64,000 nt of DNA from Burkholderiales bacterium. Lineage in GTDB: Bacteria; Pseudomonadota; Gammaproteobacteria; Burkholderiales; Burkholderiaceae_C. The stretch spans positions 1 to 64,000 of the forward strand of contig JAGWUS010000002.1 of assembly GCA_028868305.1 (NCBI GenBank), written 5' to 3'. Made by a program: the position numbers and the translations under genes. Numbering within the stretch: the first letter of the stretch is position 1; the number at the start of each line of letters is the position of its first letter. Positions 38,876 through 49,732 of this stretch are shown piece after piece. Below the pieces are notes generated by a model that was given only the letters and a program-made list of their open reading frames with translations, had not been told where the DNA came from and searched no databases.

Positions 38876-38891
38876 TTTGTTTTTGAAATTC

Positions 38892-39110
38892 AGATCGGGA
38901 GAGACAAGGTGACGCTACAGCGATGTTGTGGCGCAACTTTGCGCCGAAGGAGCAACCACCCCGGAAACTCTCAGGCAAAAGGACCGATTTAAATCGTTGA
39001 TCTCTGAAGAGCTGCCGGGCTTAGTCACCCGGCACACCGCAGGAGCAAGTGGCCTCACCGCAACGGGGTGGTCATGAATCTCTCAGGTTCCAAACAGAGG
39101 GGGTGCATGC
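38892..39110 (+). ncRNA. tandem glycine riboswitch
   Basis: Aptamer 1 gggagag...gcgccgaaggagcaa...aaactctcaggcaaaaggaccg; aptamer 2 ctgaagag...caccgcaggagcaag...gaatctctcaggttccaaacagagggg. Confidence 0.93.
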
Positions 39111-39175: not shown

Positions 39176-40486
39176 ATGAAATCAAAGGCAGCATCCATCG
39201 CAGTTATTGGCGGCGGTATCACCGGCGTCACCACCGCTTATGCCTTGGCCAAGAGAGGCTTTGCCGTCACCCTGTTTGAAAAAAACCGCTATGCTGCGAT
39301 GGAAACATCGTTTGCCAACGGCGGGCAATTGTCGGCGTCCAACGCCGAGGTGTGGAACCACTGGTCCACCATCCTCAAGGGCTTGAAGTGGATGCTCAAA
39401 AGTGATGCACCGCTCTTGGTCAATCCCAAGCCCAGCTGGCACAAGCTGAGTTGGTTTGCCGAGTTCATCGGCAACATTCCTCACTACCGGCGCAACACGG
39501 TTGACACCACGCGCCTGGCCATTGCGGCGCGCGAACACCTGTTTGCGTGGGCGAATGCCGAAGGGGTGGACTTTGATCTCAAGAAAGAAGGCATCCTGCA
39601 CATCTACCGCGACAAAAAAGGCTTTGAGCATGCAGGTGCAGTCAGCAAATTACTGGCACAAGGCGGCTTGCCGCGCCGTGCGGTAACGCCTGCCGAGATG
39701 AGAGCCATTGAGCCCACGTTGGCGGGCAATTACTACGGTGGCTATTTCACCGAGAGCGATTCCACCGGAGATATTCACAAGTTCGCGACCGGCATGGCCA
39801 ATGCGGCGGAGCGTTTGGGTGTACGTTGTCTCTATGGTCAAAACGTCGTCGCGCTGCGCAGCGACGGCGCAAAGGCGGAAGTCACGGTGAATGAAGGCGA
39901 CGGCCAGTTAACGCACCACTTTGATGGATTGGTGGTGTGTGCCGGTGTGGAGAGCCGCAGCTTTGCCGCCCAGCTTGGCGACCGGGTCAACATCTACCCG
40001 GTCAAGGGTTACTCCATCACCGTCAACCTGCCAGACGAACAAAGCCAGGCGGCAGCTCCCACCGTAAGTTTGCTCGATGACGAGACCAAACTGGTCACAA
40101 GCCGTTTGGGCGTAGACCGCTTCCGTGTGGCCGGAACTGCCGAATTCAACGGATACAACAAGGACATTCGTGCCGACCGTATCCGCCCCCTGGTGGAATG
40201 GGTGAACCAATGTTTCCCGGGCATCAACACCCGCCAGGTGGTGCCATGGGCCGGGCTGCGGCCCATGTTGCCCAACATGATGCCGCGCGTGGGGCGCGGC
40301 AAAGCTGCCAATGTGTTCTACAACACCGGGCACGGGCACCTGGGCTGGACACTGTCTGCGGTGACTGCAGAGCTGGTTGCGCAAGTAGTGGTCGATAACC
40401 AAGACGTTCGCAGCGATGCGCCAACGCCTGTTATCAGCGATATTCCTGTCAGGGCAGCTGTGCGTCCCCCATGCGCCCCACAATAA
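39176..40486 (+). CDS. D-amino acid dehydrogenase (DadA-like FAD oxidoreductase)
   Basis: IAVIGGGITGVTTAYALAKRGFAVTLFEKNRYAAMETSFANGGQLSASNAEVWN; NTGHGHLGWTLS. Confidence 0.88.
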   Translation: MKSKAASIAVIGGGITGVTTAYALAKRGFAVTLFEKNRYAAMETSFANGGQLSASNAEVWNHWSTILKGLKWMLKSDAPLLVNPKPSWHKLSWFAEFIGNIPHYRRNTVDTTRLAIAAREHLFAWANAEGVDFDLKKEGILHIYRDKKGFEHAGAVSKLLAQGGLPRRAVTPAEMRAIEPTLAGNYYGGYFTESDSTGDIHKFATGMANAAERLGVRCLYGQNVVALRSDGAKAEVTVNEGDGQLTHHFDGLVVCAGVESRSFAAQLGDRVNIYPVKGYSITVNLPDEQSQAAAPTVSLLDDETKLVTSRLGVDRFRVAGTAEFNGYNKDIRADRIRPLVEWVNQCFPGINTRQVVPWAGLRPMLPNMMPRVGRGKAANVFYNTGHGHLGWTLSAVTAELVAQVVVDNQDVRSDAPTPVISDIPVRAAVRPPCAPQ

Positions 40487-46919: not shown

Positions 46920-48380
46920 ATGATCTCTCGCGAACCCACTATCGAACGGCTGGCGACGGCCAAGTCCCTGCTTCTGACGCCCTTTGGGCTGGACGAGTCC
47001 CACCTGACCCGGGCGCTGAACGAAATCCGCGCTCACCGGGTGGACGAGGCCGACCTGTATTTCCAGTACACCCGCAGCGAGGGCTGGAGTCTGGAGGAAG
47101 GCATCGTCAAAACCGGGTCCTTCAGCATTGACCAGGGCGTGGGCGTGCGTGCGGTGAGCGGCGAGAAGACGGCGTTTGCCTACTCGGATGACATTTCGGA
47201 GGCATCGCTGCTGGATGCAGCCCGCACTGTGCGGTCCATTGCATCGGCAGCCCAGGCAGGACGTGCAAAATCAGCTGCTAAAAAGATAGCAGTTGGTCGC
47301 CGGCTGTACCCTGACACCGACCCGATTTCCACGCTGGACAGCACCACCAAGGTGGCCTTGCTGGGTAAGGTCGAAAAGCTTGCCCGCGCCAAGGACCCGC
47401 GCGTCATCCAGGTGATGGCGGGCCTTGCCAGCGAATACGACGTGGTGTTGGTGGCGCGGGCGGATGGCACCCTGGCTGCCGATGTGCGCCCGCTGGTCCG
47501 CCTGTCGGTGACGGTCATCGCCGAGCAGAAGGGCCGCCGTGAGGTGGGGTCCAGTGGCGGCGGTGGCCGGTTTGGCCTAGCCTATTTCAGCGATGCCCAA
47601 ATTGAAGAGTATGTGGACTTGGCGGTGCATGCCGCACTGACCAATCTGGAGGCCCGTCCAGCACCCGCTGGCGAGATGACCGTCGTTCTGGGCTCGGGCT
47701 GGCCCGGCATCCTGTTGCACGAAGCCATTGGCCACGGGCTGGAAGGCGACTTCAACCGCAAGGGCAGCAGCGCGTTCAGCGGTCGCATCGGCCAGCGCGT
47801 GGCGGCCAAAGGCGTGACGGTGCTGGATGACGGCACCATTGCGGACCGTCGCGGCTCACTCAATGTGGACGACGAAGGCAATGCCAGCCAGCGCAATGTG
47901 CTGATTGAAGACGGCATTCTGAAGGGCTACATTCAGGACGCGATGAACGCACGCCTGATGGGCGTGGCCCCCACCGGCAATGGCCGGCGCGAAAGCTATG
48001 CCCACGTGCCGATGCCGCGCATGACCAACACCTATATGCTCGGTGGTGACAAGGACCCGGCAGAAATCATCGCCAGCATCAAGAAGGGTCTGTACGCCCC
48101 CAACTTCGGTGGCGGCCAGGTGGACATCACCTCCGGCAAGTTTGTGTTCTCGGCGAGCGAAGCCTACTGGGTGGAAAACGGCAAGGTGCTGTACCCGGTC
48201 AAGGGCGCCACTATCATCGGTAGTGGCCCGGAGTGCCTCAAGCGCGTTGCCATGATTGGCAATGACATGAAGCTTGATCCCGGCGTGGGCACCTGCGGTA
48301 AAGAGGGCCAGAGCGTGCCGGTGGGAGTCGGGCAGCCAACCTTGCGCATGGACGGTCTGACGGTGGGCGGAACCGCCTGA
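46920..48380 (+). CDS. tldD: metalloprotease TldD
   Basis: TLAADVRPLVRLSVTVIAEQKGRREVGSSGGGGRFG; LLHEAIGHGLEGDFNRKGSSAF (HExxxH). Confidence 0.94.
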   Translation: MISREPTIERLATAKSLLLTPFGLDESHLTRALNEIRAHRVDEADLYFQYTRSEGWSLEEGIVKTGSFSIDQGVGVRAVSGEKTAFAYSDDISEASLLDAARTVRSIASAAQAGRAKSAAKKIAVGRRLYPDTDPISTLDSTTKVALLGKVEKLARAKDPRVIQVMAGLASEYDVVLVARADGTLAADVRPLVRLSVTVIAEQKGRREVGSSGGGGRFGLAYFSDAQIEEYVDLAVHAALTNLEARPAPAGEMTVVLGSGWPGILLHEAIGHGLEGDFNRKGSSAFSGRIGQRVAAKGVTVLDDGTIADRRGSLNVDDEGNASQRNVLIEDGILKGYIQDAMNARLMGVAPTGNGRRESYAHVPMPRMTNTYMLGGDKDPAEIIASIKKGLYAPNFGGGQVDITSGKFVFSASEAYWVENGKVLYPVKGATIIGSGPECLKRVAMIGNDMKLDPGVGTCGKEGQSVPVGVGQPTLRMDGLTVGGTA

Positions 48381-48427
48381 GCGGCCTTGTCAGCCTGCTG
48401 TTTTAAACCTGTGCTACATTGACACGC

Positions 48428-48496
48428 ATGAAGTCAGCCGTTTTCTTTTTTAGCTATTTTTGGTTCTCACGCGCATCCGGCGGTCGAGAGATCTGA
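48428..48496 (+). CDS. aroG leader peptide, MKSAVFFFSYFWFSRASGGREI
   Basis: 22-codon ORF with 7 of 8 consecutive aromatic residues (FFFSYFWF), upstream of terminator and aroG; below the ORF-track cutoff. Confidence 0.88.
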   Translation: MKSAVFFFSYFWFSRASGGREI

Positions 48497-48532
48497 ACGT
48501 ACCTAAAAGAAACGTCCTGAATCTTCCCAAAA

Positions 48533-48559
48533 ACCGCCGGCTTCCCCGGCGGTTTTTTT
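48533..48559 (+). terminator. attenuator terminator hairpin of aroG
   Basis: accgccgg cttcc ccggcggt tttttt; competing copy of the 3' arm, ccggcggt, at 48477-48484 inside the leader ORF. Confidence 0.9.
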
Positions 48560-48601
48560 ATGCCCCTTTCCACTTCAACTTTGACCTTAGGAGCCATCAA
48601 C

Positions 48602-49732
48602 ATGACAGCAAAAGCCTCTGCAACCGGTGACTGGTACGGGAAAGACCATCCCGCAGACCGCACCAGCAAAACCGACGACGCACGTATCAAGGACATCACC
48701 GTGTTGCCACCTCCTGAGCACCTCATGCGCTTTTTCCCCATCCGCGGCACCGCGGTGGAGAACCTGATCGCGGACACGCGCAAGCACATTCACCACATCA
48801 TGGGTGGCAAGGACGACCGCCTGCTGGTCATCATTGGCCCATGCTCCATCCACGACCCCGCCGCTGCGCTGGACTATGCCCGCCGCCTCAAAGAACAGCG
48901 CGAAAAGTACAAGGACACGCTGGAAATTGTGATGCGCGTGTACTTCGAGAAGCCACGCACCACCGTGGGCTGGAAGGGCCTGATCAACGACCCCTACCTG
49001 GACGAGACCTTCCGCATTGACGAAGGCCTGCGCATTGCGCGCCAACTGCTGATTGAAATCAACCGCCTGGGCCTGCCCGCTGGCAGCGAGTTTCTGGACG
49101 TGATTTCCCCGCAGTACCTGGGAGATCTGATTTCCTGGGGCGCCATTGGCGCGCGCACCACCGAGAGCCAGGTGCACCGCGAGCTGGCCTCCGGCATCTC
49201 CGCACCCATCGGCTTCAAGAACGGTACCGATGGCAATATCAAGATCGCCACCGATGCCATTCAGGCGGCAGCGGGTGGACACCATTTCCTGTCAGTGCAC
49301 AAAAATGGCCAGGTGGCAATCGTGCAAACCAATGGCAACCCGGACTGCCACGTGATCCTGCGCGGCGGCAAGGCGCCCAATTACGATACGGCCAGTGTGG
49401 CGGCTGCCTGTGCCGATCTGGCCAAGGCCAAACTGCATGAAACTCTGATGGTGGATTGCAGCCACGCCAACAGCAGCAAGCAGCACGAGAAGCAACTGGA
49501 TGTGGCAAAGGACATTGCCGCACAGATTGCGGGTGGTTCTAAAAGGGTATTTGGTGTGATGGTGGAAAGCCACCTCAACGCCGGTGCCCAGAAATTCACC
49601 CCCGGCAAGGACGACGCGACCCAACTGGAGTACGGCAAGAGCATCACCGACGCCTGCCTGGGCTGGGACGACTCATTGGCTTCGTTGGACGTGCTGTCGC
49701 AAGCCGTGCAGGCGCGTCGTAAACGCAAGTAG
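48602..49732 (+). CDS. aroG: 3-deoxy-7-phosphoheptulonate synthase (DAHP synthase, AroG type)
   Basis: LLVIIGPCSIHDPAAALDYARRL; MRVYFEKPRTTVGWKGLINDPYLD; VDCSHANSSKQH. Confidence 0.96.
   Translation: MTAKASATGDWYGKDHPADRTSKTDDARIKDITVLPPPEHLMRFFPIRGTAVENLIADTRKHIHHIMGGKDDRLLVIIGPCSIHDPAAALDYARRLKEQREKYKDTLEIVMRVYFEKPRTTVGWKGLINDPYLDETFRIDEGLRIARQLLIEINRLGLPAGSEFLDVISPQYLGDLISWGAIGARTTESQVHRELASGISAPIGFKNGTDGNIKIATDAIQAAAGGHHFLSVHKNGQVAIVQTNGNPDCHVILRGGKAPNYDTASVAAACADLAKAKLHETLMVDCSHANSSKQHEKQLDVAKDIAAQIAGGSKRVFGVMVESHLNAGAQKFTPGKDDATQLEYGKSITDACLGWDDSLASLDVLSQAVQARRKRK

Follow-up and report, generated by a model that had tools for sequence, protein, structure and literature searches.

Aromatic leader between tldD and aroG

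The window analyzed here, a 64,000-nt stretch of a Comamonadaceae genome near Rhodoferax, carries between tldD and aroG a short leader ORF rich in codons for aromatic amino acids, which is followed by an intrinsic terminator (Table 1). The product of aroG scores 535 bits against TIGR00034 aroFGH (cutoff 173), its best match is that of Rhodoferax bucti at 90% identity, and its top matches in the PDB are DAHP synthases, Phe-sensitive AroG among them. A second DAHP synthase with 56% identity to the aroG product is encoded in the same genome. The upstream region of this second gene (L231, G000:C80:34931-35491) has no such leader, and the two isoenzymes are therefore probably under different control.

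Table 1. Positions of the genes and of the observed or predicted leader features in the window.
Feature	Position	Strand	Remarks
tldD	46920-48380		Upstream neighbor of the leader
Extended -10 element, TGC-TACATT, TGCTACATT	48412-48420	+	Predicted transcription start at ~48427-48428, at the leader ATG
Leader ORF, MKSAVFFFSYFWFSRASGGREI	48428-48496	+	22 codons; ATG at 48428, stop codon at 48494-48496
Control codons, FFFSYFWF	48443-48466	+	5 Phe, 1 Tyr, 1 Trp and 1 Ser in 8 residues
Segments 1 and 2, putative protector hairpin (1:2)	~48459-48497	+	Overlaps the last Phe-Trp-Phe-Ser codons; core UCUC (segment 1)/GAGA (segment 2)
Segment 2, CCGGCGGT	48477-48484	+	Putative 5′ arm of the antiterminator; same sequence as the terminator 3′ arm
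Intrinsic terminator (3:4), AAAAACCGCCGG-CTTCC-CCGGCGGTTTTTTT	48529-48559	+	From folding and paired changes in relatives
Segment 3, ACCGCCGG	48533-48540	+	Arm common to the antiterminator (2:3) and the terminator (3:4)
Segment 4 (terminator 3′ arm), CCGGCGGT	48546-48553	+	T tract next to it
aroG, class I DAHP synthase (3-deoxy-7-phosphoheptulonate synthase)	48602-49732	+	Putative regulated gene; own SD AGGAG; TIGR00034
mpl	Downstream of aroG	Opposite	

Both the aromatic composition of the leader ORF and the identity of segment 2 with the 3′ arm of the terminator had been pointed out in a first-pass annotation of this DNA, and direct reading of the window bears them out. When all ATG-initiated ORFs of 10-45 aa on both strands of the window are considered, this leader is the only one with at least six aromatics in eight residues. 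No such ORF appeared in 40 order-1 shuffles, and thus it is not expected by chance. The strong terminator with a U tract proposed in the same annotation also holds: ViennaRNA folds it as a 12-bp stem of -18.5 kcal/mol with a U tract after it, and its core is invariant among relatives. The 2:3 duplex reaches -16.9 kcal/mol, and the CCGCC core of segment 3, which both hairpins would use, is nearly invariant. A simple promoter and terminator scan with default patterns reported nothing, the terminator hairpin included.

The -10 element and the leaderless feature are additions to the first-pass annotation. A -10 box (TACATT, mostly preceded by TGN) ends 6-8 nt 5′ of the leader ATG in 69 of 70 relatives; its placement is similar in several other families and is not evident in f3, f8, f20 and f32. 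An SD-like motif (GGAG, GAGG or AGGA at -20 to -4) was found in none of the 70 leaders compared with 38 of 43 aroG starts. Because the -10 box sits so close to the ATG and no SD precedes it, the leader ORF is probably read as a leaderless mRNA, with a start site predicted from the position of the -10 box.

Conservation and pairing in relatives

For the near set, the 80 aroG loci closest to that of the window were taken from the GTDB species collection; a contig edge truncates one of them, which leaves 79. An aromatic-rich short ORF lies upstream of aroG in 76 of these. It is missing at three loci, a chromosome-2 copy in Cupriavidus and two loci from Polynucleobacter. The -10 region, the ATG, the core of segment 2, GAGAG, and segments 3 and 4 stand out as conserved blocks in the aligned near set. 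In Polynucleobacter (L079 and L081), neither leader nor terminator is present and aroG directly follows tldD, a clear instance of the attenuator having been lost in nature. Leader and terminator are also missing from L192 and L193, small genomes near Polynucleobacter in sequence.

Of 29 good genomes in the genus, 28 matched a covariance model. Among 300 genomes sampled evenly across the order, 90 matched at E ≤ 0.01, ~78 of them below 1e-3; the matches that were inspected individually span at least 13 families of the order. All 68 matches of the first set outside the genome analyzed here precede aroG on the same strand. Four strong matches were found outside the order, in two families, all in front of an aroG that groups with the aroG of family f4, which fits horizontal transfer or deep ancestry. 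Weak out-of-order matches (E 1e-5 to 1e-2) had no aroG and were discarded. The upstream regions of 60 DAHP-synthase genes, taken for the most part from genomes that the model did not match, contain no comparable leader except at L233, which is itself a covariance-model match; a few of the 60 regions contain weaker runs of 4-5 aromatics that are not convincing. A contig named Solimonas (gamma-proteobacteria) carries a Comamonadaceae-like aroG (79%) together with the leader (L070:1273-1419), and either horizontal transfer or contamination could account for it.

Paired changes were scored for all three hairpins. In the terminator (82 relatives), 96.5% of cells are paired, with 44 double-sided changes vs. 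15.5 in shuffles. The first-pass annotation had proposed that segments 2 and 3 pair as an antiterminator, and this pairing is borne out in 80.5% of cells. The key 2:3 position (77 cells) is CG in 28, UA in 24, UG in 2 and other in 23, so that 23 of the 77 cells are unpaired there though the GGCGG/CCGCC core holds. The same segment 3 base forms GC in 40 and AU in 36 cells of the terminator pair. Triples across segments 2-3-4 are C-G-C in 60 cases and U-A-U in 21, with the mismatched C-A-U in just 2. On these pair counts, segment 3 changes together with both of its partners. The covariation is limited because segments 2-4 vary at few positions, and the covariance-model alignment for distant families leans to 1:2 and 3:4, not 2:3. 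The aroG tree requires at least five switches of segment 3; among its well-supported independent pairs, the switch is matched by segment 2 in 2.5 of 3 and by segment 4 in 2 of 3. This is the expected direction and alone not significant, with 3 to 5 independent switches, and since the events are too few we make no claim of significance from the tree. The first-pass annotation had named a comparative search as a check on its reading, and the two things it looked for, a leader conserved in Burkholderiales and covarying stems, were both found.

The 1:2 hairpin, which the first-pass annotation missed, folds in relatives. Its cells are paired in 79.3% of cases with 30 double-sided changes vs. 14.7 in shuffles, and the pairing falls to 48-56% when it is slid by 1-3 columns. 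The inner part of the hairpin in the clade of the window differs from the Hydrogenophaga/Limnohabitans type. A protector hairpin lying over the last control codons would make the element a full three-hairpin attenuator of the trp type.

To follow the segments through the states of the leader, minimum-energy structures were computed for 130 leaders from the RNA left free by the ribosome before segment 4 exists, the ribosome being assumed to cover 12 nt counted from the first base in its A site. With a ribosome stalled on a middle aromatic codon, 129 of 130 leaders have segment 3 paired upstream (515 of 1300, ~40%, in composition shuffles), compared with 1 of 130 when the ribosome is at the stop codon and 61 of 130 with no ribosome. 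An earlier folding of 70 leaders under another criterion gave 67, 22 and 25, respectively, and the leader of the window was paired in the stalled state and unpaired in the other two. The folding of 130 relatives reproduces the earlier proposal that stalling frees segment 2 and that a ribosome at the stop codon masks it. In these models the stalled and stop states match the demands of attenuation and the untranslated state is ambiguous. Since upstream pairing of segment 3 occurs in 61 of the 130 ribosome-free folds, basal termination without translation is unsure, and because the 1:2 hairpin is not dominant in the same folds, its support is moderate.

Phe is encoded in all of 138 leaders, together with Tyr and Trp in 97 and with Tyr only in 34, and it is plausible from this composition that the leader integrates all three aromatic amino acids. 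The run always lies 5′ of segment 2, and the distance from the first base of its last aromatic codon to GGCGG is mostly 11-15 nt. In Aquabacterium and relatives (L041, L044, L058 and L072) the aromatic run of the aroG leader also includes His codons (RYHFWHFHIQH, FYFWHFHLPPH), which may point to an input that has been added or altered. Segment 2 occurs in ORF reading frames 0, 2 and 1 in 71, 59 and 8 of the 138 leaders, in different lineages, and thus it is the RNA and not the peptide tail that is conserved. TTT makes up 66% of the Phe codons in the leaders vs. 23% in the aroG genes that they precede (Fisher p ~1e-34), a preference that fits sensitivity to charged tRNA, and the Phe codon after Trp, which is part of segment 1, is TTC in 45 of 50, which fits the 1:2 stem.

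These features also bear on nascent-peptide arrest as in TnaC, in which the peptide would sense a free aromatic amino acid and stall the ribosome, with an RNA switch to follow. The good conservation of the YFWFS run within the family of the window could be read in this way, but it is explained by the pairing of segment 1, and the order and number of aromatics differ between families (FGFF, FWYYF, FSYS). The tail after the run shifts frame or ends early (PGGREA, PGG-stop, PAAER, PPAAER, HRPAEE), and the TTT preference fits stalling that depends on codons. Because peptide order and tail vary, we reject arrest of this kind as very improbable.

Probable attenuation of aroG

Taken as a whole, the element is very probably a ribosome-mediated transcription attenuator of aroG of the trp/pheA type. 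This assessment rests on sequence anatomy, conservation, pair support, the independence of segment 2 from the reading frame, codon bias and the folding of states, and from these we infer the point at which transcription starts, leaderless translation, ribosome stalling, termination, and a response to amino acids. Transcription would begin at the leader ATG or one base before it, and the 22-codon ORF would be a leaderless mRNA. Segments 1 and 2 would be transcribed first and could form a hairpin. With ample charged tRNA-Phe, tRNA-Tyr and tRNA-Trp, the ribosome would clear the aromatic run, halt at 48494 and mask segment 2, or alternatively segment 2 would refold onto segment 1; in either case the 3:4 terminator would form before aroG. 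If any aromatic tRNA were short, the ribosome would stall on FFFSYFWF, covering segment 1 and leaving segment 2 free to pair with segment 3, so that no terminator would form and aroG would be transcribed. The classical trp/pheA attenuation logic seen by the first-pass annotation is supported, with the 1:2 protector hairpin and probable leaderless translation added to it.

A more elaborate version is conceivable, which we put forward tentatively as it is rather doubtful in its entirety. The leader may act as a leaderless three-input OR gate in which a stall at Phe, Tyr or Trp lifts the repression of the enzyme at the shikimate entry, with rare TTT codons as tuning except for the TTC forced by the stem, and its ~130-nt terminated RNA may act in trans like rnTrpL of Sinorhizobium meliloti.

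It might also be argued that the leader chiefly yields a small protein with a function of its own, or an sRNA acting in trans, and that attenuation of aroG is secondary. Such products have a precedent in the trp attenuator of S. meliloti, which according to PMC7298713 yields the trans-acting sRNA rnTrpL and the trans-functional peptide peTrpL. Here, however, the leader always lies directly before aroG and the peptide tail is not conserved, which leaves room for a side function of the terminated RNA and makes it highly unlikely that such a product is the main one. Hardly any credence can be given to a plain tldD terminator with a chance ORF before it: tldD is directly upstream in 58 of 70 relatives, where a terminator would be useful, but leader and terminator are still kept in the 12 without a same-strand upstream tldD match, a promoter-like element lies between tldD and the leader, and the aromatic density is conserved and absent from shuffles, so this reading is already refuted by conservation, the element persisting without tldD.

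Relation to known leaders and significance

The attenuator proposed for aroG shares with those of E. coli trp and pheA the control codons in a leader, the mutually exclusive 1:2, 2:3 and 3:4 hairpins and a terminator before the first structural gene. It differs in its target, aroG at the entry of the shikimate pathway, in the presence of three aromatics in most leaders and in being probably leaderless. The Rfam model Phe_leader (RF01859) scores 20.7 bits vs. a gathering score of 55 and is placed at 48504-48561, outside the control codons, and no leader family fits under permissive thresholds. At gathering score, Rfam 15 has no family at the leader, and its only match in the whole window is a glycine riboswitch at 38886-38996 on the forward strand (RF00504, 63.7 bits). 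The neighbors of this riboswitch are an amidohydrolase ORF and, at 39176-40486, an ORF matching D-amino acid dehydrogenase PRK12409, and not a gcv operon.

A large regulon study describes TyrR and TrpR as regulators of the DAHP synthase genes in E. coli and relatives; it assigns aroG to TrpR or TyrR in some gamma-proteobacteria and lists attenuation for trp and pheA (PMC5343134). The trpL of S. meliloti (rnTrpL/peTrpL) is likewise an amino-acid attenuator, and its transcript starts at the leader ATG and may be a leaderless mRNA (PMC7298713); it differs in having Trp codons, in targeting trpE(G) only and in belonging to alphaproteobacteria, while the start in the aroG leader is deduced from the -10 box. 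Attenuation has also been proposed for uORFC-13-1 before aroF (DAHP synthase) in Acholeplasma, a uORF with Phe codon(s) and a terminator (PMC8632094). By its description this uORF is set apart, with 24 sequences from Acholeplasma and unassigned environmental DNA, an RBS and at least one Phe codon; the RBS trait was not seen in any of the 70 leaders scanned for GGAG, GAGG or AGGA at -20 to -4. The mycobacterial polycysteine attenuators, going by a title cited in PMC13236596, are leaderless short ORFs acting as amino-acid attenuators but differ in their Cys codons, their hosts and their target genes. We found no earlier description of an aroG attenuator in beta-proteobacteria in the open-access literature, and subscription papers or supplements may list one. 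The mechanism is of a known kind, and the family, missing from Rfam 15, was not described in any of the sources searched.

For many Burkholderiales, an attenuator before aroG would mean that aromatic amino-acid synthesis is controlled at the RNA level in its first step. The family can be annotated from the alignment made here. It would also offer a natural system for leaderless translation coupled to transcription, for the sensing of several amino acids at once and for codon choice under the joint constraint of RNA and codons. In laboratory Burkholderiales, removing the attenuator would be a direct way to bring about aromatic overproduction.
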